64,000 nucleotides of DNA, from positions 124,001 through 188,000 of the forward strand of contig NZ_CP132910.1 in the NCBI RefSeq assembly GCF_030846775.1, read 5' to 3'. The position numbers and the translations under genes were made by a program. The first letter of the stretch is position 1, and each line of letters opens with the position of its first letter. A model generated the notes under the pieces. The model saw only the letters and a list, made by a program, of their open reading frames with translations, made no database searches and was not told the DNA's origin. Positions 44,362 through 57,504 of the stretch are shown piece after piece. The DNA is from Geothrix sp. 21YS21S-2. Its GTDB lineage: Bacteria; Acidobacteriota; Holophagae; Holophagales; Holophagaceae.

Positions 44362-45134
44362 ACGTCCGCGCATCCGCCCTGTGCCTGCTGGCCACGGCCC
44401 TCCTGGCCCAGGAGTCGGAAATCCCCCTCGGGCTGAACCTGCCCAACGCCGACCGGCTCCGGGACTGGGACCTCGGGATCCGGTTCACCCACCGGTTCCT
44501 GGAGCCCGCCCGGGGCGCGGGGAAGGACCTCTACGGCCTGGACGGCGGCACCTATCCGGGCCTTGGCCTGGACGTCGGGATCCGGGCCGTGCCCGGCCTG
44601 AACGCGCAGCTCTACCGGACCTCCGACAACAAGACCGTCACCCTGGCCCTGCAGGAGCAGCTGCTGGACGGGCCCAGCCTCCGTCTGGCAGCCAGGGTGG
44701 AGCGGTTCGACGAGACCGTGAAGCAGGTCCGGCTGCCCCTGGGCACCATCGGCATCTCCGGGGCCGCCCTCCAGCTCCCGGCGGAATTCCGCCGGGGCCC
44801 CGTGACCCTGCTGGTGGTGCCCACCTGGCTGACGCGCACGTCGTCGTCGGACCGGGCCCTGTTCACGTTCGGCGCGGGCCTGCGGTGGCAGATCGCGCCC
44901 AGCCATCAGGTCCTGGCCGAATACTACCCGCGCCCCTCCCGGCTCGACGCCGCCACGTACTCCGCGGGCGGCAGCCTCGGCTACCGCTTCGGCACTCGCA
45001 AGCACCGGTTCACCCTGCTGGCCACCACCGCCAACGGCACCACCACCCACCAGGTGCTCGGGGGCGACTACGGCGGAGGGCCCAGAGGCGTGAACCGCTG
45101 GGCCCTCGGCTTCAACCTGGTGCGCGTCTTCTAG
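44358..45134 (+). CDS. DUF5777 family outer-membrane beta-barrel protein
   Basis: A 258-residue protein with a signal peptide ([17 protein letters not shown]) and alternating amphipathic strands ([37 protein letters not shown]). It ends in an aromatic outer-membrane signature (NLVRVF). The family is often found with cytochrome c and DUF2231 genes, as here; likely an electron-transfer or small-molecule-related outer-membrane component. The stop shares CTAG with the convergent chemoreceptor stop. Confidence 0.82.
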
Positions 45135-48100
45135 AGCTTGAACCGGGAGACGTTCTGCTGGAGCTTCTCGGCCAGCCTGGCGAGTTCCTTCGAGGCGTTG
45201 TTGGTGTCGCCGGCGCCCCGCGTGGTGTCCTTGGCCGCGGTGCTGACGTGGGCCACGTTGCGGGAGACGTCGTTCATGCCCTTCGAGGCCTCACCGGCGT
45301 TCTTCGCCACATCCCCGGCGCCCTGGGCGAGCTGGTTGATGTTGCGGGAGATGTCGGTGACGCCCTTGACGGCCTCCTGGACGTTGCGGCTGACCTCGTT
45401 GGTGCCGGTGGCGGCCTGCTGGACGTTGCGGGCCACTTCGGCCGCGCCCCGGGCGGCGTAGCCGACGTTCTTGGAGATCTCGTTGGTGGTGGCGGTCTGC
45501 TCCTCCACCGACGCGGCGATGTTGGCCGAGATGGCGTTGATCTCGCCGATGATCTGCACGATGTCGTCGATGGCCTTGACGGCCTGCTGCGTGTTGCCCT
45601 GCATGTCCTCCACCTGGGCGCGGATCTCCTCGGTGGCGCCCGCGGTCTGCTTGGCGAGCTCCTTCACCTCGTTGGCCACCACGGCGAAGCCCTTGCCGGC
45701 CTCGCCGGCGCTGGCGGCCTCGATGGTCGCGTTCAGGGCCAGGAGGTTGGTCTGGGCGGCGATGCCCTTGATCATGTCCACCACCTTGCCGATCTCCTGG
45801 GCGCTGCGTCCGAGCTTGTTCACGGTCTCTGCCGTGTTCGCCGCGCTCTTGGAGGCCTTGCCGGCCACGGTGGCGGCCTGGCCCGAGTTCTTGGAGACCT
45901 CGTTCAGGCTGACGCTCATCTCCTCGATGGCCGTGGCCACCGTGTTCACCGAACCCGTCATCTGCTCCGTGGAGGCCGCGATGGTCTTCATGTTCGAGGA
46001 CATCTGCTCCACGGCCGCGCCCACGGTGCGCAGGTTGGCGGTGACCTGCTCCGAGGCCGAGGCCACGGTGTTCGCGTTGGCGCTCATCTCCTCGACGCCC
46101 GCCGCCATGTTCTTCACGTTGGCGGAGGCCTGCTCCGTCCCCGCGGCGGCGGTATTGGCCTGCATGGTCATCTGCTCAGCGCTGCTGGTCATGGTGGCCG
46201 AGGTGGCGGTGAGCTCGTCGGCGCTGGAGGCCAGGGTGTTGGAGGCGCTGCTGATGTCGGTGAGGGCCTGGGCGAGCTTGGAGGCGCTGTTGTTCACGGC
46301 GTTGCGCAGGTTCTGGAGGTCCCCCTTGTAGTCGGCGGTGATGCGCGCCGTGAGGTCCCCCTGCTCCATGGCGCCCATGACCCGCTGCACTTCGTTGATG
46401 GGGTTGATCACCGCGTCCAGGGTGTCGTTGACGCCCTGCACGATCTTGCGGAAATCGCCCTGGTGGCGGGTGGCGTCGGCGCGGGTGGCCAGCTTGCCTT
46501 CGGTGGCGGCCTTGGCCAGCATGGCGGCGTCGGCCACCATGGAGTTGACCGCGTCCACGCAGGTGTTCAGGTTGTTCTTGATCTCGTTGAAGTCGCCGTT
46601 GTACTTGTCGGTGATCTTGGGCGGGATGTCGCCCTTGGAGATGCGGTCCACGTAGCCCGCCGAGACGTTGAGGGGCACGATGACCGCGTCCAGGGTCTTG
46701 TTGACCCCGTCCACCAGCTGGAACCAGCCGCCCACGAACTTGGTGGCCGTGGCTCGAGTCGCCAGGCGCCCGCCGATGGCGGCCTGCACGAGGCCGTCGG
46801 TCTCGGCGAGGAGGTCCGACATCATGGCCACCATGTTGTTCAGGTTGCCCTTGATGACGTTGTACTGGCCCTTGTACTCCGTGGTGATGACGGGCGGGAT
46901 GACGCCCTTGGAGACCTTGTCCACGTAGTCGGCGGTGACGTTGAGCGGGTTCACGATGTTGGTGATGGTGTCGTTGACGCCCGAGACCAGCTGGTTCCAG
47001 CCGCCCACGAACTTGGAGGCGTCGGCGCGGGTGTCGAGCTGGCCGTCCGCGGCGGCCCGGATGATCTTGTCGGTCTCCTTGAGGAGCTCGGACATCATCG
47101 TGACCATGGCGTTCAGGTTCACCTTGATGACGTTGTACTGGCCCTTGTACTCGGTGGTGATGACCGGCGGGATGATGCCCTTGCTGCACTTCTCCACGTA
47201 GTCGGCGGTGACGTTGAGCGGATTGACGATGTTGGTGATGGTGTCGTTGACGCCCGAGACCAGCTGGTTCCAGCCGCCCACGAACTTGGAGGCGTCGGCG
47301 CGGGTGTCGAGCTGGCCGTCCGCGGCGGCCCGGATGATCTTGTCGGTCTCCTTGAGGAGCTCGGACATCATCGTGACCATGGCGTTCAGGTTCACCTTGA
47401 TGACGTTGTACTGGCCCTTGTACTCGGTGGTGATGACCGGCGGGATGATGCCCTTGCTGCACTTCTCCACGTAGTCGGCGGTGACGTTGAGCGGATTGAC
47501 GATGTTGGTGATGGTGTCGTTGACGCCCGAGACCAGCTGGTTCCAGCCGCCCACGAACTTGGAGGCATCGGCTCGGGTGTCGAGCTGACCGTCCGCGGCG
47601 GCCTTGATGATCTTGTCCGTCTCGGAGAGCAGGTCGCTCATCATGACGACCATCTTGTTCAGGTTGCCCTTGATGACGTTGAAATCGCCGTTGTAGTTGT
47701 CGGTGATCACGGGCGGGATGATGCCCTTGGCGCACTTGTCCACATAATCGGCGGTGACGTTGAGGGGTCCGATGACGGCGTCGAGGGTGTCGTTGACGCC
47801 CTGGACGATCTTGCGGAAGTCGCCCTGGTGCTTGGTGGCGTCGGCGCGGGTGGCGAGCTTGCCGTCCACGGCGGCCTTGCCGAGCATGACCGCGTCGGCG
47901 ACCAGCGCGTTCACGGCGTCCACGCAGGTGTTGAGGTTGTTCTTGATCTCGTTGAAGTCGCCGTTGTACTTGTCGGTGATCTTGGGGGGGATGTCGCCCT
48001 TGGAGATGCGATCCACATAGCCGGCGGAGACGTTGAGGGGGCCGATGACGGCGTCGAGGGTGTCGTTGACGCCCTGCACGATCCGGCGGTAGTCGCCCTG

Positions 48101-49072
48101 GTGGCGCGTGGCGTCGGCTCGGGTGGCCAGCTTGCCCTCGAGCGCGGCCTTGTTGAGCATGGCGGCGTCCTCGACCATGGCGAGCAGGTTCGCGCGCACG
48201 GTCTTGAGGGCCGGGTTGATCTCGTCCTGGGCGTCCGTTGCGGTCCAGTCGCGGGTCAGGTCGCCCTTGGCGATCTCGGCGAGCCCGCCGACCACCCCCT
48301 GGAGGTTGTCGGCGAAGCCGTCCATGGCGCGGGCCAGCTCCCCGATCTCGTCCTTGCGCTCCATCTTCAGGCGCTTGCCGAGGTGCCCCTTGGACATCTC
48401 GTTCATCATGTCCACGCCCAGGGCCATGGGCCGGGTGATGGACCGGGCGATGACGATGCCCAGGAGCACGCCCAGGATGGCGGCGAACACCATCAGGATC
48501 TCCATGGCATGGATGGCCGAAGAGGCCTGCTCGGTGTTGTGGTCGGAGGTCTGCTTGGCGAGATCCATCTTCGTCTTCATGAGCTCTGCCGAAGCCGCGT
48601 TCAGGTCCTGCACGATCTTGTAGTTGCTCTTGTAGAGCATGTCTTCCGCCTGGGCCTTCTTGCCGGCCCGGAGGAGCGCGAAGTAGGTGTTGTTGGATTC
48701 GGTGGAGCTCTTCTTGATCTCGAGGTATTTCTTGAAGGCGACCCTGCCCACCTCGGAGACCAGCGTCTTCTCGTAGGCGTCCTCGGCCTTGGCGGCCTGC
48801 TGCTCGAGTTCCTGGTACCGGGTCTGGAACCGGTCCAGATCACCCGAGAGGTAGGCGTCGCGCATGTTCACGCGCATGCGCTGGTTGGACTGCATGATGT
48901 CGCCCAGGATGCCGACGGGGACGAGCATCTTCTGGTAGAGCATCTCGTCCGAATCATCGGCGTTCTTCAGCTTGATCGCGCCGAAGGTGCCCACCAGGAC
49001 GGTTATGAGGGCCGTGATCAGGAACGAGGCGATGAGCTTGGGGCCCATCTTGATGTTGTCGAGGAATTGCAT
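45131..49072 (-). CDS. Methyl-accepting chemotaxis protein with poly-HAMP array
   Basis: A 1313-residue chemoreceptor. Transmembrane helices at about 13-33 and 190-212 bracket a periplasmic four-helix sensor (34-190); a canonical HAMP ([14 protein letters not shown]) follows. Residues 336-881 are six consecutive 91-residue repeats, each beginning NDT/NKT and containing VxAxYV...SKG.IPP.IT and ending LVSGV/IVQGV. Repeats 3 and 4 are identical in protein. The signalling domain (to the C-terminus) has the hairpin tip [19 protein letters not shown]. It should cluster with CheA/CheW encoded immediately upstream. Poly-HAMP arrays are known in chemoreceptors and fungal Nik1 kinases; six is long. Confidence 0.93.
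46928..47473 (-). repeat. Two near-identical 273-bp tandem units inside the chemoreceptor gene
   Basis: The 273 bases at 46928-47200 and 47201-47473 differ at only two positions, both near the start of the unit. Identity with the next unit (47474 onward) continues for about 90 bases. Adjacent HAMP repeats outside this stretch are much more diverged, so this is a recent in-frame duplication or gene conversion. Confidence 0.92.
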
Positions 49073-49133: not shown

Positions 49134-49595
49134 TTAGCCGCTGGAAAGGAGTTCCTGGACGTTGAGCAGCACCAGCAGTCCCGCGTCGGTCTTCAGGACC
49201 CCGGAGAGGAAGCGCTCCTCCGCGTCGGTGAGGTTGGCGGGGGGCGCCTCGGCCAGGGCGGCCTCGGCCTCCACCACGTCGCCGATGGCGTCCACCAGGA
49301 GGCCCATGAGGTCGGAGGTGCCGCCCTGGGAGTGGCCGTTGACCTGGATGGTGTTGGCGGCGTGCTTGAGGATGACGATGTGGCTGGAGTCCCGGATGGG
49401 CGCGGGCTCGTGGCCCAGCCGCACCGACAGGTCGAGGATGGTGACGATCTGGCCCCGCAGGTTGATGAGGCCCCGGATGTGGGTGTCAGCGCGGGGCACG
49501 GCGGTGATGTTGAAGACCCGGATGATCTCCCGGACCCCGAGGATGTCCAGGCCGAACAGGCGCTCTCCGACGCGGAAGGTGGCGAACTGGCTCAT
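49134..49595 (-). CDS. cheW: Chemotaxis coupling protein CheW
   Basis: A 153-residue SH3-like coupling protein linking CheA to the receptor. It has [44 protein letters not shown], and a C-terminal half ending in [14 protein letters not shown]. The start overlaps the cheA stop by ATGA. The chemoreceptor gene starts 61 bases downstream, on the same strand. Confidence 0.94.
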
Positions 49596-52312
49596 GCGGC
49601 GTCACCTCCCATGAGGCCCGCGGCCCGGAGCAGGTTCACCGGGTCCAGGAAGAGGGTCAGGTGGTTCTGGACGACCGCGGAACCCAGGAGGCCCGGGCCC
49701 TCGAACTCGACCTTCTTGAGCTCGACCTCGACGTCCAGCGCGTCCAGGATCTCGGAGATGAGGATGCCCGCCGGGGGCCGGGCCGTGGAGTTCTGGCCGG
49801 GGATCTTGGGGATGACCAGGAAGAGCTCCTCCAGGTCCTTCGCCAGCGGCCGCACCTCCAGGTGCTGGTCCAGGCGCAGGAGGGGCAGGCCCTCTCCGCG
49901 GTATTCGATGTACTCGCGCTCCCCGATGAGCTCGATCTTGCTCCGGAGGATCCGCTCCAGCCGGAGCACGTGGTCCTGGGGCACGGCGAACCGCTCTCCC
50001 CTGGCCCCCTCGAAGAGGATGACGGACCGGCGGCGGGAGGCCTTGAGGGCCGCGTTGCGCTTCTCCTCCTCGGCCCGGCGCAGCTCCTCGGCCTGGAGGT
50101 CGGAGAAGTGGAGCAGGGCGGCGGTGGAGAGGCCGCCGGCGTCCAGGATCATGATCACGCGGCCGTCGCCCAGGATGGTGGCCCCGGAGAAGCACTTGGT
50201 GCCCTGGATGAAGCTGGACAGAGGCTTGACGACGATCTCCTCGATGTCGTAGAGCTCGTCGACGATGACGCCGTACTGGTTCTTGCCCACCCGCAGCACG
50301 ATGATGTTGTGGTCGCTGCGCCAATCGGCCCTGCGGTCACCTTCCCGGGTGAAGGCCTCGGCATCCTCGGCGGACGCTTCTGCGCGGCGGTCGGCGATGG
50401 AGGTGCGGCGGTCCGGGAGCTCCTCGCCGGTCGCCGGATGGGTGAACACCCGCTGGATGCCCAGCACGTCCGCGAGGCGCACCAGGGGCAGGAGCTTGTC
50501 CCGCAGGCGGAGGACGAGGGCGCCCTGCACCTGCTCGATGCGCTGGACCACTTCGGAGGCCTTGACCCACACGAACTCGACGACGTTGACCTGCGGGATG
50601 GCGAAGCGGTGGTCGGCGACCCCCACGATCATGGAAGGGATGATCGCGAGCGTCAGCGGCAGGCGCAACCGGACGGTGGTGCCCATGCCCACCTCCGTCT
50701 CCACCTCCACGTGGCCGCCCAGCTTCTCGACGTTGGTGCGGACCACGTCCATGCCCACGCCCCGGCCGGAGATGTCCGACACGGTCTCGGCCGTGGAGAA
50801 GCCCGGCGCGAAGACCAGGTGGACGATCTCCCGCTCCGTCATCTCGGCGGCCTGGGCCTTGGTGACCAGGCCCTTGGCCAGGGCCTTCTCCAGGACCTTC
50901 TTCGAATCGATGCCCCGGCCGTCGTCGTGGACGGCGATGTTGATCTGGCCGCCCTCGTGGAAGGCGTGGAGGTGGATGGCCCCGGTGGGGTTCTTCTTGG
51001 CCTTCTTGCGCTCCGCCGGGCCCTCGATGGCGTGGTCGGCGCAGTTGCGGATGATATGGGTGAGGGGGTCCACCAGCATCTCGACGATGGACTTGTCCAG
51101 CTCCACCTCGGCGCCCTCGATATGCACCTCGATCTGCTTGCCGAGCTGCCGGCTCATGTCCCGGATGATGCGGGGGAAGCGGCTGAAGACCGTCCCGATG
51201 GGCTGCATGCGCGTCTGCATGATGCCTTCCTGCATCTCGGTGGTCACCTGGTTCACGTTCTGCAGGATCGCGCCCAGGCCGGGGATCTCGCCCTTGTACT
51301 CGGAGATGGCGCGCACCAGCTGGTTGCGGCCCAGCACCAGCTCGCCGGCGAGGTTCATGAGGTTCGTGAGCAGGTCGACGCGGACGCGGAGGGTCTCGTT
51401 GCCGCCTTCCTTGGCCGCGGGCCCCCGGGCCTCGGGCTTGTCCTCGGGGACGGCCTCGGCCTCGGGCTGGGCCTCCTCCACGGGGGGCGGCGGGGGCGGG
51501 GGGGGAGCGGCCTCGGAGGGCTTGGCCGCCTTGGTCTTGGCCTTGAGCATCTCCTTGAGGGCCTTGACCTCCAGCACCTTGACCTGCTCCACGGGGAGCT
51601 TCAGGGCCAGGGCGGCCAGATCCGGTTCCAGGACGCTGGCGAAGAGGAGGGTCACGGGCAGGTCCTGCTCCAGGCAGTGCTCCAGGTCCGCGATGACCTC
51701 GATGTCGATGAAGGCGTCCAGGCAGGTGCCCACCGACATGGCGTTGTTGAGGAACTGCAGGGGGGCCAGGCCCTGGTCCTTGATGTCATGGTGAAGGTAG
51801 GCGATGGCCCGGTAGAGGTTCATGCCCCGGCGCAGGGCGGAGCGGACCCCCTCGGCGTCCAGGTCGAAGTCCCGCTTGGTGCCCTTCTCCCGCCCCTTGA
51901 CCGTCTCGGACAGGTTCACGCCCTGGCCGCTGAGGATGGCCTCCAGGCCGGCGAGCTCCTTGGCGTAGGGAACGCTGTCGCTGGCGTGGATGTCGTCGAG
52001 CATGGCCCGCAGCCGGTCCACGCCCGTGAACAGGCTGTCCATGAGCTCGGGGGTGGGATGGAGCTTGCCGTCCCGCACGAGCATCAGCACGCTCTCCATG
52101 GCGTGGCTGAGGCGCTTGAGGGCCTCGAAGGCGAAGAATCCCGCGCCGCCCTTGAGGCTGTGGATGGCCCGGAAGACCCGGTTGATGACCTCCTGGGAGA
52201 CCTTGGATCCCAGGTCTTCCATGGCCAGGAGGTCGGGCTCGATGGTGCTGAGGTGCTCCCTGCTCTCGGCCACGAAATCGGCGATGATGCTTTCATCAGC
52301 CAGGCTGGCCAT
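49592..52312 (-). CDS. cheA: Chemotaxis histidine kinase CheA with two CheW-like domains
   Basis: A 906-residue kinase. Domains: HPt 1-110 with phospho-His51 in AIHSLKGGAGF; a middle helical region; a linker rich in Pro and Glu (265-300); dimerisation 305-370; ATPase 410-550 (IIRNCADHAIEG, DDGRGID, SGRGVGMDVV); two CheW-like domains at about 555-740 and 762-900, where the classic enzyme has one. ATG 52312 starts right after the STAS gene stop (TAGATG). It should phosphorylate the response regulators and CheB. Confidence 0.95.
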   Translation of the reverse strand: MASLADESIIADFVAESREHLSTIEPDLLAMEDLGSKVSQEVINRVFRAIHSLKGGAGFFAFEALKRLSHAMESVLMLVRDGKLHPTPELMDSLFTGVDRLRAMLDDIHASDSVPYAKELAGLEAILSGQGVNLSETVKGREKGTKRDFDLDAEGVRSALRRGMNLYRAIAYLHHDIKDQGLAPLQFLNNAMSVGTCLDAFIDIEVIADLEHCLEQDLPVTLLFASVLEPDLAALALKLPVEQVKVLEVKALKEMLKAKTKAAKPSEAAPPPPPPPPVEEAQPEAEAVPEDKPEARGPAAKEGGNETLRVRVDLLTNLMNLAGELVLGRNQLVRAISEYKGEIPGLGAILQNVNQVTTEMQEGIMQTRMQPIGTVFSRFPRIIRDMSRQLGKQIEVHIEGAEVELDKSIVEMLVDPLTHIIRNCADHAIEGPAERKKAKKNPTGAIHLHAFHEGGQINIAVHDDGRGIDSKKVLEKALAKGLVTKAQAAEMTEREIVHLVFAPGFSTAETVSDISGRGVGMDVVRTNVEKLGGHVEVETEVGMGTTVRLRLPLTLAIIPSMIVGVADHRFAIPQVNVVEFVWVKASEVVQRIEQVQGALVLRLRDKLLPLVRLADVLGIQRVFTHPATGEELPDRRTSIADRRAEASAEDAEAFTREGDRRADWRSDHNIIVLRVGKNQYGVIVDELYDIEEIVVKPLSSFIQGTKCFSGATILGDGRVIMILDAGGLSTAALLHFSDLQAEELRRAEEEKRNAALKASRRRSVILFEGARGERFAVPQDHVLRLERILRSKIELIGEREYIEYRGEGLPLLRLDQHLEVRPLAKDLEELFLVIPKIPGQNSTARPPAGILISEILDALDVEVELKKVEFEGPGLLGSAVVQNHLTLFLDPVNLLRAAGLMGGDAA

Positions 52313-52627
52313 CTATCTCTCCTTGATGGGGAACAGCTTGGGGAGGCTGAACAGCTTGAACACGCGCATCAGGTCCGCGTTGGCCCCCTCCACCCGGAAA
52401 CCGATCTTCCGCTGCTGGCAGGTCTTGAACAGGCCGAGGATGAGGGTGATGCCCAGGGAGTCCACGACCTCCGACTCGGAAAGGTCCAGGACCGCCTCCG
52501 TGCAGGGGGCCGCCAGCGCCTCCATGGCGGCCTTGCGCCGGGCTTCCACGGTGCTGGCCACCAGGTTCCCGCCGGAGGGGATCCTGAGGGTGCTGGAATC
52601 GGTGGGGCTGGGGTTGTTCGCTGGCAT
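52313..52627 (-). CDS. STAS domain anti-sigma factor antagonist
   Basis: A 104-residue STAS protein (LDLSESEVVDSLGITLILGL, with Ser in the DSLG position phosphorylated in SpoIIAA/RsbV), then VFKLFSLPKLFPI. Such proteins bind an RsbW-type kinase when unphosphorylated. ATG 52627 is set by GGAGG six bases upstream; the earlier ATG 52645 is in frame but less well placed. It is the first gene of the CheA-CheW-receptor transcript. The upstream gene carries the matching phosphatase and kinase folds. Confidence 0.88.
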   Translation of the reverse strand: MPANNPSPTDSSTLRIPSGGNLVASTVEARRKAAMEALAAPCTEAVLDLSESEVVDSLGITLILGLFKTCQQRKIGFRVEGANADLMRVFKLFSLPKLFPIKER

Positions 52628-52706
52628 CTCGATCCTCCGGTTCATGGGGCTGGTTGAAATGGAAAAGGGGGCCCAACCCACGGCATCCCTGAAGGTCCGT
52701 GAAATT

Positions 52707-52808
52707 GCGCCCCCAACTTGCAGGTCCTGGCCCCGCCCGTCAAGACAGTCCGCACCGAATGGGCGGTTGAAATCGAAGTCAGTATCGGACGGTGGCCGGA
52801 CATGTCAA
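52707..52808 (-). promoter_or_regulatory. Promoter and structured leader of the STAS-cheA operon
   Basis: Minus strand: TTGACA (52808-52803, containing the TGA stop of the hybrid gene), 16 bases, GATACT (52786-52781), then a leader of about 147 nt to the ATG at 52627. Positions 52771-52707 match, without gaps, 43 of 65 bases of the leader upstream of the hybrid kinase (56715-56651). Core blocks GTCTTGACGGGC and CCTGCAAGTTG are shared, with a hairpin GCGGG/CCTGC between them. Confidence 0.6.
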
Positions 52809-55800
52809 TCGATAAAAGAGGGTTGGTTCTGGCGGAAATCCATGGTGAGCTCCCCGCCGACCATCGCGACCCGGGTGGCGAAGAACTGGATGAGCGGGAT
52901 CCCGCGCCCCCGCTCCGAGGAGGCGGTGTCCGGGGGCCTATGGGCGGCCAGGTCGAACCCCTGGCCCTCGTCCACGACCGCGATCCGGAAGCCGTCTCCC
53001 GGGAACCGGTGGGCCCAGAGCTGGACGAAGGGGGCGCCTTCGCCGGGGGAGCCGTGGAGGACGGCGTTGGAAAGGGCCTCCCGCACGGCCAGGAGCGTGT
53101 CGTAGCGATCCTGGGCGCCCGGGGCGGCGGTCCAGCCCCGGCTGTCCAGGAAGGCCTCCAGGGCGGCGCAGGCGCCGTCGATGGCCTGGAGGTCGGCGGG
53201 CAGGTCCAGGGTCAGGTGGTCGGGGTCGGGGGGCAGGGGGGGCTGTTCCAGGGCCACCACGAGCAGGTCGTCGCCGAAGTTGCCCCCGGCGTGCGCCCGG
53301 GCCGCCTCGGAAACCAGGTTGATGGCCTGGAAGATGTCGGTGCCCCGCAGGTTCTCCCAGATGGGCCCGGCGAGTTCGAGGAAGGCCTGCTTCTCGGCCG
53401 AGGGGGCGTCGAAGAAGCCGTCGCTGCCCAGGAGCAGCCGGTCCCCGGGGGCGAGGACCACCACCTTCTCCTCCACGATGGGTTCGTCCAGGATGCCCAG
53501 GGGGGCCCCGTTGATGGCGATGGGCCGCGTCGCGCCGCGGGTGGCCCGGTGCCACAGGGCGTGGGGGATGCCGGCGTTCAGGAGGTGGAGGCGCCCGGTG
53601 CCCGGGTTCCAGTGTCCGAACAGGCCGCAGATGGGCACCTCCGAGAAGGGACCGGCCTGGATGGCCCGGTTCAGCTTGAAGGCCAGGGCCCGGAGGTCCA
53701 GGTCGGAGGCGAGGAAGTTGGTGAGCATGCCCAGGTAGGCCGCCACCGCGTAGGAGCTGATGACCGAATGCCCCGCCACGTCGGCGATGGCGAAAAAGAT
53801 CGAGCCGTCCTCCCTGCGGAAGGCCCTGAACACGTCGCCGCCCGCGTCGGTGAGGGGTTCCGAGATGGAGTAGATGGGCATGTCCTTCTCGGGGATGGCC
53901 TCCATGGCGCGCTGGGCCATGCGCACGGCCTGGGCGGTCTCGTGGCTGCGCATGAACTTCACCCGCGTGGCCTGGTCCGCGCAGAGGCGCTCCACGGTCG
54001 AGACGAGCATCGCCGACTCGAAGGGCTTGGTGAGGAATTCGTTCACGTGCAGGTGGAGGGCCTCCTTGACGGATTCGGTGTCGTCGGAGGAGGAGAGCAT
54101 CAGGATGGGGATGGAGGCGTCCAGCTTGCGGACCCTGCCCGAGAGCCGCAGCCCGTCCAGCCTGGGCATGACGATGTCCGTGACGAGGATGGAGTAGCGC
54201 CCGGGGTTCTTCTCCATGGCCTCCCAGGCCTCCTGGCCGTCCCGGGCCTCGTCCACCACGTAGCCGGCCTTCACCAGCCAGCTGCGCAGCAGGCTCCTCG
54301 TGGTCTGGCTGTCCTCGGCGAGAAGGATGACCGAGGCCCCTTCGGGCCGCGGCTCCGCGGCCTGGTCCTGCCGCGAGCGCGCCGCGGGACGCAGGTTCAT
54401 GACCTTCCGGATGGCCTTGGCCATGTCCAGGATGGTCACCGGCTTGAGGAGCACCTGGGCGAAGGGCGTGGACATGCCCTCCAGCGGCATGGGGTCCTGG
54501 AAGGCGCCGGTGATGAGGATGGCGGGCATGTCCGGGCGGATCTTCCGGATCTGCTGGGTGAGTTCCACGCCCGACATGTGGGGCATGGAGAGGTCGGTGA
54601 CCAGGAGGTCGAAGTCCTGGGGGTGGTGGCTGACCTCCTCCAGGGCCTCCTGGCTGTCGGAGCGGGAGGTGACGCGGTAGCCCAGCATCTGCAGGCCCTG
54701 CTTGCCCAGGGCGCTGAGCACCTCCTCGTCGTCCACGAAGAGGATGCGTTCGTGGCCCGTGGGCTCCTCGGGGACCGGTTCGAGGGACGCGGGCGCCTCG
54801 GGGATGCTGCAGGGGAGGACCACCTGGAAGACGCTGCCCTGGCCCGGCTCGCTGCGCACGGAGATGGACCCGCCGTGGGCGTCCACGATGCCGTGGACGA
54901 CGGACAGGCCCAGGCCCTTGCCCTCGGTTCGCTCCTTGGTGGTGAAGAAGGGCTCGAAGATCCGCTCCATGACGGCCGGCTCCATGCCGCAGCCGGAGTC
55001 CTTCACGGTGAGGACGGCCGACGTGCCCGATCGGTCCTCCAGGCTGAACTCCAGGGTGCCGCCGGCGGGGAGCATGGCCTGCAGGGCGTTGATGGACAGG
55101 TTCATGACGATCTGGTGGATCTGGCTGGCGTTGCCCGTGGTCCAGAGGCCGGGCGCGAGGGTCGAGCGCACCTGCACCGTGGCGGGGAACGTGGACCGCA
55201 CGAGGTGGATGGCCTCCTTCACCACCTGGGAGAGGTCGAGGGGCGCGGACTTCTCCTCGCTGTTGCGGCTGAACGCGAGTATCTGCCGGTTGAGCTCGCT
55301 GGCCCTCATCACGGCCTGGTAGATCACCTGGAGCTTGAGGCGGATGGGGCTGTCGGCGGCCAGCTGCCATTCGATGAGCTCGGTGGCGCTGAGGATTGCG
55401 GTGAGCAGGTTGTTGAAGTCGTGGGAGACGCCTCCGGCCACTTCCGCCAGGGCCTTCATCTTCTCCATCTGCCGAAGGCTGCGCTCGGTGTCGGCCTCGC
55501 TGGTCACGTCGTGCACGATGCCCACCCGGGAGGTGGGCGTCCCGGAGGCGTCCCGCACCGGGGCCAGCGTGCATTCCAGGATCTGGGAGCTGCCGTCCGC
55601 GGGCTGCCCGGGGAAGCGCCCCTGCCAGGCGGAGCCCGCGTCCTCCAGGGGGAGGCCCGGCAGGACCCTGGCCACGGGCTGCCCCAGGGTCCCGCCGGGA
55701 GCGGCGCCCAGAATGCGCTCCAGGGCGGGGTTGGCGTAGAGGAGGGTCCCCTGCAGGTCGGCGATGAAGATCCCCTCGGTGATCTGCTCCACGGCCGTGG

Positions 55801-56578
55801 CCAGCCTCTCCTTGGTCGTCTCCAGGGCGAGGGTCGCGGTGACGTCGTTGAACAGCACCGCGAAGTGGCCCGGCTGGGGGCAGAAGGCGATGCCGGCGAA
55901 GGTCCGTCCCCGCAAGCTCCGGTAGTCGTCGACCGCAAGCGGTTGACCGGACAGGGCCACGTTCCCGAATTTCCGGATCCAGGTGCGGGAGAGCCCGGGG
56001 ACGAGTTCCAGGGCCGTGCGCCCGACCACTTCCGAGGCCCTGATGCCCGTGAGCCGCTCGTAGGCCGGGTTCAGCTTGACGAAGCGGAAATCCACGGGCT
56101 GCCCCTGGTCGTCGAAGATCACCTCGTGGAGGCCGTAGGCCTCGTCCATCAGGTCCTCGAGGAGGCCGGTGTCAGCGGCTGGGAGGTCGGGCGAGCCCAG
56201 GCTCCGGCGGGGCGTGTTGGCGAGTTCCCGCTTGACCGCCTGGGGCAGCCTGGCCAGCCGGCCCATGGAGATGAAGTCCCGTGCGCCCAGGCGCAAGGCC
56301 CGGCTCACCAGGTCCTCGTCGCCCGAATTGGCGATGACGATGCAGGGCAGGGCCGGGGCGAGGGCCTGCACGTCCGAAAGCACCTTGGTGTAGGAAAGGC
56401 CCGGCAGGGCGTGCTGGCACAGGATCAGGTCCCAGGTCCCGCGGTCCAGGGCCGCGCGGAGATCCTGGGAGGAGGCGACCCGCTCGCTGGCGAACTCGAG
56501 GCCGGCCTCCCGGAGGGGGCGCAGGACCAGCTGCGCCTGGGCCTCGGAATTCTCGACGAGGAGGATTTTCACGTGCAT
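52805..56578 (-). CDS. Hybrid sensor kinase with SpoIIE phosphatase and RsbW-type kinase domains
   Basis: A 1257-residue cytoplasmic protein. Order: receiver 1-115 with the acceptor Asp missing (DLILCQHALPG); PAS 140-245; PAS 258-362; HisKA with His386 (VSHDFNNLLT); HATPase to about 590 (MNLSINAL, DSGCGM, GKGLGLSVV); receiver 611-728 (Asp662); receiver 749-868 (Asp801); PP2C/SpoIIE phosphatase 895-1110 (DAGGDVF, IADVAGH, GSDGFFD, GDDLLVV); RsbW-like HATPase 1120-1245 (REALSNAVLHG, DEGQGFD, GRGIPLI). It joins a phosphorelay to a partner-switch in one chain. The STAS protein encoded next is its obvious partner. Confidence 0.92.
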   Translation of the reverse strand: MHVKILLVENSEAQAQLVLRPLREAGLEFASERVASSQDLRAALDRGTWDLILCQHALPGLSYTKVLSDVQALAPALPCIVIANSGDEDLVSRALRLGARDFISMGRLARLPQAVKRELANTPRRSLGSPDLPAADTGLLEDLMDEAYGLHEVIFDDQGQPVDFRFVKLNPAYERLTGIRASEVVGRTALELVPGLSRTWIRKFGNVALSGQPLAVDDYRSLRGRTFAGIAFCPQPGHFAVLFNDVTATLALETTKERLATAVEQITEGIFIADLQGTLLYANPALERILGAAPGGTLGQPVARVLPGLPLEDAGSAWQGRFPGQPADGSSQILECTLAPVRDASGTPTSRVGIVHDVTSEADTERSLRQMEKMKALAEVAGGVSHDFNNLLTAILSATELIEWQLAADSPIRLKLQVIYQAVMRASELNRQILAFSRNSEEKSAPLDLSQVVKEAIHLVRSTFPATVQVRSTLAPGLWTTGNASQIHQIVMNLSINALQAMLPAGGTLEFSLEDRSGTSAVLTVKDSGCGMEPAVMERIFEPFFTTKERTEGKGLGLSVVHGIVDAHGGSISVRSEPGQGSVFQVVLPCSIPEAPASLEPVPEEPTGHERILFVDDEEVLSALGKQGLQMLGYRVTSRSDSQEALEEVSHHPQDFDLLVTDLSMPHMSGVELTQQIRKIRPDMPAILITGAFQDPMPLEGMSTPFAQVLLKPVTILDMAKAIRKVMNLRPAARSRQDQAAEPRPEGASVILLAEDSQTTRSLLRSWLVKAGYVVDEARDGQEAWEAMEKNPGRYSILVTDIVMPRLDGLRLSGRVRKLDASIPILMLSSSDDTESVKEALHLHVNEFLTKPFESAMLVSTVERLCADQATRVKFMRSHETAQAVRMAQRAMEAIPEKDMPIYSISEPLTDAGGDVFRAFRREDGSIFFAIADVAGHSVISSYAVAAYLGMLTNFLASDLDLRALAFKLNRAIQAGPFSEVPICGLFGHWNPGTGRLHLLNAGIPHALWHRATRGATRPIAINGAPLGILDEPIVEEKVVVLAPGDRLLLGSDGFFDAPSAEKQAFLELAGPIWENLRGTDIFQAINLVSEAARAHAGGNFGDDLLVVALEQPPLPPDPDHLTLDLPADLQAIDGACAALEAFLDSRGWTAAPGAQDRYDTLLAVREALSNAVLHGSPGEGAPFVQLWAHRFPGDGFRIAVVDEGQGFDLAAHRPPDTASSERGRGIPLIQFFATRVAMVGGELTMDFRQNQPSFID

Positions 56579-56650
56579 GGGGGATCCCGGATCTCAAGGC
56601 GTCAAGAGGAAGCACGACCCGGCAGCCAGAAAAACGGTAGCTCCAGGTGG

Positions 56651-56750
56651 GCGCCTTCAACTTGCAGGACTGGATCCTGCCCGCCAAGACGGGTGTCCCC
56701 AAGGGACGGATTGAACAGGCCAATTATCGGAAGACCGTTCAAATTGTCAA
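56651..56750 (-). promoter_or_regulatory. Promoter and structured leader of the hybrid kinase gene
   Basis: Minus strand: TTGACA (56750-56745), 16 bases, GATAAT (56728-56723), a near-consensus sigma-70 promoter, then a leader of about 138 nt to the ATG at 56578. It contains two hairpins: GTCCC-TTG-GGGAC (56707-56695) and GCAGGA-TCCAG-TCCTGC (56680-56664). The 65-base block 56715-56651 matches that before the STAS gene at 43 positions, ungapped. Confidence 0.62.
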
Positions 56751-56763
56751 GAACCAGATGCCG

Positions 56764-57504
56764 CTAGACCGTTCCCTCGAGCAATGCCGAGAACTTCTTG
56801 CGCAGCTCCCCGAGTTCCTTTGATTTGAAGGCGCTCTTGGTGTGTTCCAGGGTCTCCACGCCCGAGCGGATGGTCTCCTGGTATAGCCCGAGCCTGGGGC
56901 ATTCGCGGATGCCGCACACCCCCTGGCCCGGGTTCGCCTGGAGGGCCAGATCCAGCAACTGCTTGAGTTCGAGGGTCGAGGAGGCTAGGTTCCCGAGCAC
57001 CAGGCCCACCAGGCCGCTGAGGGGCATGACCCCCATGGAGGCGGGGGCCGAGCGGATGTCGGCCTCGATGGCCTTCATCTCGTTGGCCCAGGACTGGAGG
57101 CGGATGGAGGACTCCAGGGCGAGCGCCTGAACCTTCCTCAGGCGCACCCCGGTCTGGATGTGCATCACGAGTTCCTGGGTATCCACCGGCTTGACCAGGT
57201 AGGCCAGGACGGCGTTGCCCATGGCCTCCAGGGCGGTGTCCATGGACGGGTGGCCGGTCATGAGCACCACCGGCAGGCCGGCGTTCAGGGCCGGGATCTG
57301 GCGCATGAGGTCCAGGACCGGGGGGCCCGGCATCTGGATGTCCGACACCAGGACATCGTACCGGCAGGCCTCCAGCCTCTCCCTCGCCTCCGTGGCGCTG
57401 GACGCGCAGTCCACGGTGAACCCATGGAGGGTGAGGAGCTGGGCGATGGTCCGGAGGTACGCTTCCTCGTCGTCGGCAATGAGGAGATGGCCTTTGGTTT
57501 CCAT
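56764..57504 (-). CDS. Response regulator with helical output domain
   Basis: A 246-residue protein. An N-terminal receiver (LLIADDEEAYLR, VLVSDIQMPGPPVLDL, VLMTGHPS, YLVKPVD) is complete. The C-terminal ~120 residues are helical, with a Cys pair (GVCGIRECPRLG) and no known DNA-binding motif, so output is probably by protein contact. ATG 57504. It lies upstream of the hybrid kinase in the same direction; the 185-base spacer carries that gene's own promoter. Confidence 0.85.
   Translation of the reverse strand: METKGHLLIADDEEAYLRTIAQLLTLHGFTVDCASSATEARERLEACRYDVLVSDIQMPGPPVLDLMRQIPALNAGLPVVLMTGHPSMDTALEAMGNAVLAYLVKPVDTQELVMHIQTGVRLRKVQALALESSIRLQSWANEMKAIEADIRSAPASMGVMPLSGLVGLVLGNLASSTLELKQLLDLALQANPGQGVCGIRECPRLGLYQETIRSGVETLEHTKSAFKSKELGELRKKFSALLEGTV

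Follow-up and report, generated by a model that had tools for sequence, protein, structure and literature searches.

The locus lies in the window, the 64,000-nucleotide stretch of the Geothrix sp. 21YS21S-2 chromosome analyzed in this study, and contains a response regulator gene, a hybrid kinase gene and an operon that starts with a gene for a STAS-domain protein and includes cheA. The features, in window coordinates, are as follows.

45131..49072, minus strand: chemoreceptor with 4HB_MCP, seven HAMP_2 and MCPsignal domains (Pfam)
49134..49595, minus strand: CheW (Pfam)
49592..52312, minus strand: CheA (Pfam)
52313..52627, minus strand: STAS-domain protein, first gene of the operon behind the second (STAS-cheA) leader (Pfam)
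52659..52714, minus strand: intrinsic terminator of the STAS leader, whose 5' arm is the P1 3' strand (GGGGGC..GGCCCCCTTTTCC)
52709..52746, minus strand: core element of the STAS leader, the P1-P2 hairpin and proposed antiterminator (covariance model E 2e-15)
52750..52766, minus strand: P0 hairpin of the STAS leader (from the P0 hairpin count against shuffles)
52781..52808, minus strand: promoter of the STAS-cheA leader, TTGACA-N16-GATACT (sequence)
52805..56578, minus strand: hybrid kinase with three REC, PAS, HisKA-HATPase, SpoIIE and HATPase_c_2 domains, downstream of the first (HK) leader (Pfam)
56610..56656, minus strand: terminator-like hairpin of the HK leader, overlapping the P1 3' strand, without a good U-tract
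56653..56690, minus strand: core element of the HK leader, the P1-P2 hairpin and proposed antiterminator (covariance model E 7e-16; alignments)
56695..56707, minus strand: P0 hairpin of the HK leader, GTCCC-TTG-GGGAC (from the P0 hairpin count against shuffles)
56723..56750, minus strand: promoter of the HK leader, TTGACA-N16-GATAAT (sequence; kept in congeners)
56764..57504, minus strand: response regulator with a receiver domain (REC) and a helical C-terminal domain (C-x4-CPR ... LExTKxxFKSKELGxLR), the proposed RNA-binding partner

In the region 52313-56578, the hybrid kinase, with its SpoIIE phosphatase and anti-sigma-type ATPase domains, adjoins the STAS protein that heads the cheA operon, an arrangement suggestive of a partner-switching branch connected with chemotaxis. 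The seven HAMP_2 domains of the chemoreceptor (45131-49072) stand in tandem between the 4HB sensor and the MCP signaling domain.

An earlier note on this DNA had claimed that the two transcripts share promoter geometry, leaders of about 140 nt and a gapless block with 43 identities in 65 bases, and all of these points were confirmed. In the HK leader, exactly 16 nt separate TTGACA (56745-56750) from the downstream GATAAT (56723-56728), and the STAS leader has precisely the same spacing between TTGACA (52803-52808) and GATACT (52781-52786). The leaders are about 138 nt and about 147 nt long, respectively, with the start of the hybrid kinase at 56578 and that of the STAS protein best placed at 52627, where GGAGG lies upstream. 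The stretches 56651-56715 and 52707-52771 agree in 43 of 65 positions without gaps, whereas the best ungapped 65-mer of dinucleotide-shuffled leaders reached 30.1 identities on average and 38 at most, so that 43 was attained in none of 1000 shuffles. The common hairpin that the note had drawn is indeed present in both leaders, but its drawing had to be improved: it is best represented by P1, GTCTT/RRGGC plus a C-G pair, and then P2, GCRGG/CCTGC, with a CGG/AAG internal loop and a bulged G.

In the 5.25-Mb one-contig genome, the pattern CTTGRCGG-N5..25-CTGCAAG occurs only in the two leaders, and a DNA search (BLAST) with the leader returned only the leader itself. The same leaders precede the orthologous genes in congeners, and in relatives the exact pattern detected true copies, three chance matches in coding sequence (L006-L008) and one match in another family (L004), while a more distant copy followed by a textbook terminator was found in another genus (G013). 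A covariance model built from ten leaders, R1, was run on 93 genomes of the class, where it had 40 matches, and revealed three further copies in the own genome, C1:1417261, C1:810163 and C1:54883, which precede genes for a chemoreceptor, a PAS hybrid kinase and a small HTH_3 protein, respectively, and bring the total to five. Beyond Holophagaceae, the element was found in Verrucomicrobia, Planctomycetes, Chloroflexi, KSB1, Zixibacteria and Deltaproteobacteria. The weak covariance matches L088 and L090 were rejected as chance matches in coding sequence. The position of the two window copies, 4 kb apart in one cluster, might have suggested that their likeness comes from a local duplication of the promoter region or from chance, but this reading, to which we give practically no credence, is already refuted by the wider family: besides the result of the shuffles, the genome has three copies that are not linked to this cluster, and other phyla contribute dozens more whose stems covary.

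The core of the family, with the consensus GCCTT-GNCGG-P2-AAGTCG-AAGGC-GCAA, is a single 38-nt irregular hairpin, in which P1 (GCCTT/AAGGC) is followed by G/C and C/G pairs flanking a variable position, and then by the conserved CGG/AAG internal loop, the bulged G and a variable P2; the core gave no evidence of a junction or pseudoknot. Covariation was evaluated with 61 distinct copies, excluding L088 and L090, the doubtful L086, the decayed L087 and three diverged copies recognized by eye (L130, L133 and L137). Double-sided compensatory changes were found in 8 of 12 pairs, and two-sided changes that keep the pair filled 43 cells versus 10.7 in shuffles; the covariation score of the real alignment was matched by none of 500 shuffles, and 94.7% of cells are paired in the true register as compared with at most 46% in slid registers. 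Directly 5' of P1, a less conserved hairpin, P0, exists in 45 of the 61 copies versus 16 (maximum 23) in shuffles, has unconserved loops of mostly 3-4 nt and is seemingly missing in several planctomycete copies. The loop of P2 varies in length and sequence, and no GGA is conserved in it across the 61 copies. A DNA operator for the response regulator, situated downstream of the promoter, would account for the fixed place of the block after the promoter and for the partly palindromic P2, but we consider such a site very improbable because stem changes are compensated with G-U pairs kept, and because the conserved part is asymmetrical and has its 3' arm in common with the terminator described below.

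No Rfam family matched the element at gathering score in the window and 12 loci of other phyla, and a relaxed threshold yielded only chance-level matches, none of them credible. The idea that both transcripts are coordinated by a cis-regulatory RNA or a site for an RNA-binding protein gains support from the additional copies with covarying stems, from the occurrence of the element in signaling and chemotaxis transcripts and from the strong candidate RNA-binding protein discussed below, and the lack of an Rfam match agrees with the earlier statement that no riboswitch class could be named. Copies with covarying stems in relatives, on which the earlier note had staked the RNA reading, were found in large number, and the reading survives. 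The two binding partners it had suggested did not fare as well, since the alignment has no conserved GGA loop for CsrA and no GEMM-type match speaks for a cyclic dinucleotide. Neither the overlap of the hairpin with a terminator nor the connection to the response regulator gene at 56764-57504 had figured in the earlier note.

The 3' strand of P1, AAGGC(GCAA), also serves as the left arm of another hairpin, whose usual form is AAGGCGCAACC...GGTTGCGCCTTTT. To count as a terminator, a hairpin had to begin in the P1 strand, score better than -18 kcal/mol and have four or more U among the next eight nucleotides; 53 of 60 copies had one, versus 5.35 (maximum 10) with shuffled downstream sequence. 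Stabilities were measurable in 59 copies, and in every one of them the terminator surpassed the core, with means of -29.2 and -15.1 kcal/mol, respectively. Because the 3' strand of P1 doubles as the 5' arm of the terminator, the P1-P2 hairpin and the terminator are mutually exclusive. The STAS leader has a proper terminator; in the HK leader, both in the window and in congeners, the hairpin is present and the U-tract is weak. Second core copies at L094:7422-7463, L106:7245-7286 and L097:7086-7127 lack a clear overlapping terminator and sit shortly before a start codon (GAAGGGAGCCCCG..ATG), and translational control is therefore possible in these cases.

Most copies of the element have directly upstream a gene for a response regulator of about 248 amino acids (246 in the window), in which the Asp, Thr and Lys residues of receiver phosphorylation are conserved. 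Its C-terminal region of about 130 residues, ending in LExTKxxFKSKELGxLR, matches no Pfam or NCBIfam family; Response_reg was the sole significant Pfam match of the regulator, with no CAT_RBD. ANTAR (PF03861) is absent from the three families that hmmscan gives for the window regulator up to E 10 and from the 25 commonest families over 40 regulator homologs. In the predicted full-length structure (mean pLDDT 84), the receiver domain is followed by a helix of 44 residues and then by three others. Among the matches listed by Foldseek, the EutV-RNA structure 6ww6 has the highest query TM-score (0.56), which comes mostly from the receiver domain, and the full-length model aligns with EutV over residues 2-170. 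The C-terminal model alone gave no significant structural match and no recognizable RNA-binding fold; its matches in VIA-align were set aside as apparent coincidences of long helices below the caution threshold of the tool, and ANTAR was not among the structures listed. Given the ANTAR-like arrangement and the absence of an ANTAR sequence match, the likeness is therefore one of architecture, without sequence support for membership.

The distributions of the regulator and the element were compared by running the RNA search and a profile search for the C-terminal region of the regulator separately on the same 93 genomes of the class. The regulator and strong RNA matches occurred in the identical 20 genomes, and three extra genomes had RNA matches only, all weak: two are chance matches in coding sequence, and the third, L087:4732-4767 in a genome of the same genus (G004), is a decayed copy whose P2 arms, GGTCAGG/CCTAGAA, pair poorly. 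The regulator was not found in G004, and the copy looks like a relic left after regulator loss. A search of GTDB contigs with the protein only gave 48 loci, in Planctomycetes, Verrucomicrobia, Deltaproteobacteria, Anaerolineae, KSB1, Zixibacteria, Armatimonadota and others, and in many of them a model made from Holophagaceae RNAs only was enough to reveal the element a short distance downstream of the regulator. With the RNA models, most of the 48 loci proved to contain the element, nearly always on the strand of the regulator and mostly 40-500 nt downstream; about ten had no element nearby. The refined model, R2, which was trained on most of the protein-first loci on which it was scored, gave 44 matches at E < 5e-6, with the next match at 0.14. 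Strongly diverged copies downstream of the regulator in L130, L133 and L137 (e.g., AGCTTTTTATGGTGGGACTTTGGGCCCACTGGCAAAAGGCACAGC with a terminator) were missed by both models, and the element family is therefore wider than the counts given here.

In Verrucomicrobia, 4 of 236 genomes were RNA-positive and all 4 have the regulator, which exists in 12 genomes overall, and in the Phycisphaerae class 6 of 198 were RNA-positive, 5 of them with the regulator, which exists in 7 overall. Six RNA-positive genomes that had not been used for training (G228, G376 and G379 of Verrucomicrobia; G387, G397 and G428 of the Phycisphaerae class) all possess the regulator, and the element adjoins it in five; the genes behind these elements encode four chemoreceptors, a CheA and a LuxR-type protein. 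The single exception is G485, in which the element precedes a gene for a small unassigned protein and a search for the regulator did not detect it. Linkage alone would make neighbors co-occur, and unlinked copies are therefore better evidence for action in trans: such copies, namely three in this genome, four of five in G120 and one on another contig in G049, were found only in regulator-bearing genomes.

A small-molecule riboswitch for chemotaxis genes, for example a second-messenger sensor, with the regulator merely a common member of the cluster, would fit the conserved internal loop, the overlap with a terminator and the 5' position of the element. We regard this as improbable, because hardly any genome has the element and lacks the regulator, also where copies are unlinked, and because the core is a single 38-nt hairpin that gave no evidence of a junction or pseudoknot. 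In addition, the regulator is usually located upstream of the element's own promoter and thus is mostly not the controlled gene, which also disfavors a riboswitch.

Across the family, the genes behind the element mostly encode MCP, CheW, CheA, CheY-type proteins and hybrid kinases with PAS, SpoIIE and receiver domains, and they constitute a chemotaxis and signaling regulon. Upstream of 23 of the 61 copies there is a sigma-28-like site, TAAAG/TCAAG-N-CCGAT, versus 1.2 expected, and upstream of 10 a TTGAC-type site, versus 0.13 expected; the former sites, as matches to the consensus only, might be used by sigma-28.

Taken together, the leaders are probably copies of a conserved attenuator RNA that is run, in an antiterminating manner, by the neighboring phosphorylation-controlled RNA-binding response regulator. 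By default, the transcript would end at the intrinsic terminator. When a partner protein holds the P1-P2 hairpin, RNA polymerase would read into the chemotaxis and signaling genes. Co-distribution and gene neighborhood point to the response regulator at 56764-57504 as the partner; its receiver domain would take the phosphate signal, and the helical C-terminal domain would serve as the RNA-binding output. With five copies of the element and one regulator gene in this genome, the product of the single gene would act in trans on several leaders. We infer both the binding of the RNA by the regulator and the read-through on binding. The sign of the effect is unreadable from the sequence, so the regulator might instead favor termination or block translation and thereby turn the genes off, as the second copies located before start codons without a clear terminator might also indicate. 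We think this unlikely, though slightly less so than a riboswitch: the conserved loop, which resembles a recognition site, belongs to the hairpin that competes with the terminator, and in every measurable copy the terminator is by itself the more stable of the two, so that binding of the partner to P1-P2 should cause antitermination.

To our knowledge, essentially all that is known of two-component control at the RNA level concerns ANTAR proteins. The proposed antiterminating regulator resembles EutV, NasR and AmiR of that class in having a receiver domain, a long linker helix and a helical output domain, and the RNA, as in ANTAR systems (PMC3369931), shares sequence with the 5' arm of the terminator, here in 53 of 60 copies. 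One regulator for several leaders, with its gene near a target, is another common trait. ANTAR RNAs, however, have two hairpins with hexanucleotide loops bearing A at position 1 and G at position 4 (PMC3369931), whereas the present element consists of a single irregular hairpin whose internal loop is conserved and does not show the two-hairpin A1/G4 pattern. The regulator also differs, in that the window protein has no ANTAR profile match and its C-terminal domain has no significant structural match. The c-di-GMP/cGAMP riboswitches (GEMM) similarly reside in leaders of motility and chemotaxis genes and have a terminator-type expression platform, but the element has no credible Rfam match and no two-helix aptamer, and is linked to a protein regulator. 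In the BglG/SacY/LicT systems, the RAT RNA hairpin, which has internal loops, is held by the protein, and overlaps and excludes the terminator (see also PMC3369931). A protein-stabilized, terminator-excluding hairpin with an internal loop is likewise proposed here, in conjunction with a two-component receiver instead of PTS domains, no CAT_RBD, and another RNA sequence and loop pattern. The nearest described work is that on ANTAR (PMC3369931); antiterminators held by a protein are known in principle, but the RNA and the regulator each form a new family. A literature search limited to open-licence articles, and therefore a weak negative, found no description of the regulator/element pair.

We hold with good confidence that the regulator represents a second, ANTAR-independent class of RNA-binding response regulators, which has a new C-terminal domain and controls chemotaxis regulons in many phyla via new antiterminator leaders. 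It would be a candidate second solution for two-component control acting on RNA, distributed over many phyla, with an output domain absent from Pfam and NCBIfam and an RNA absent from Rfam. Chemotaxis genes are generally regarded as controlled chiefly through the hierarchy of flagellar promoters; if our proposal is true, receptors, CheA, CheW and CheY would be subject to a signal-dependent decision after transcription start. The two parts are paired, and the proposal is therefore directly testable.

In L106, L094, L097, L112 and L180, the element precedes the regulator gene as well as following it, which suggests autoregulation. Four planctomycete genomes (G129, G130, G135 and G136) each have two tandem regulators of this family, and R2 detected no element in G135 and G136. 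In a cultivated carrier, the Opitutaceae isolate EW11, two copies of the regulator gene lie on one contig. A PAS-domain protein encoded at L178:2668-3159 (G327) has the same LERTKRSFRSKELGELR tail without a receiver domain, and the tail may be a portable output module.
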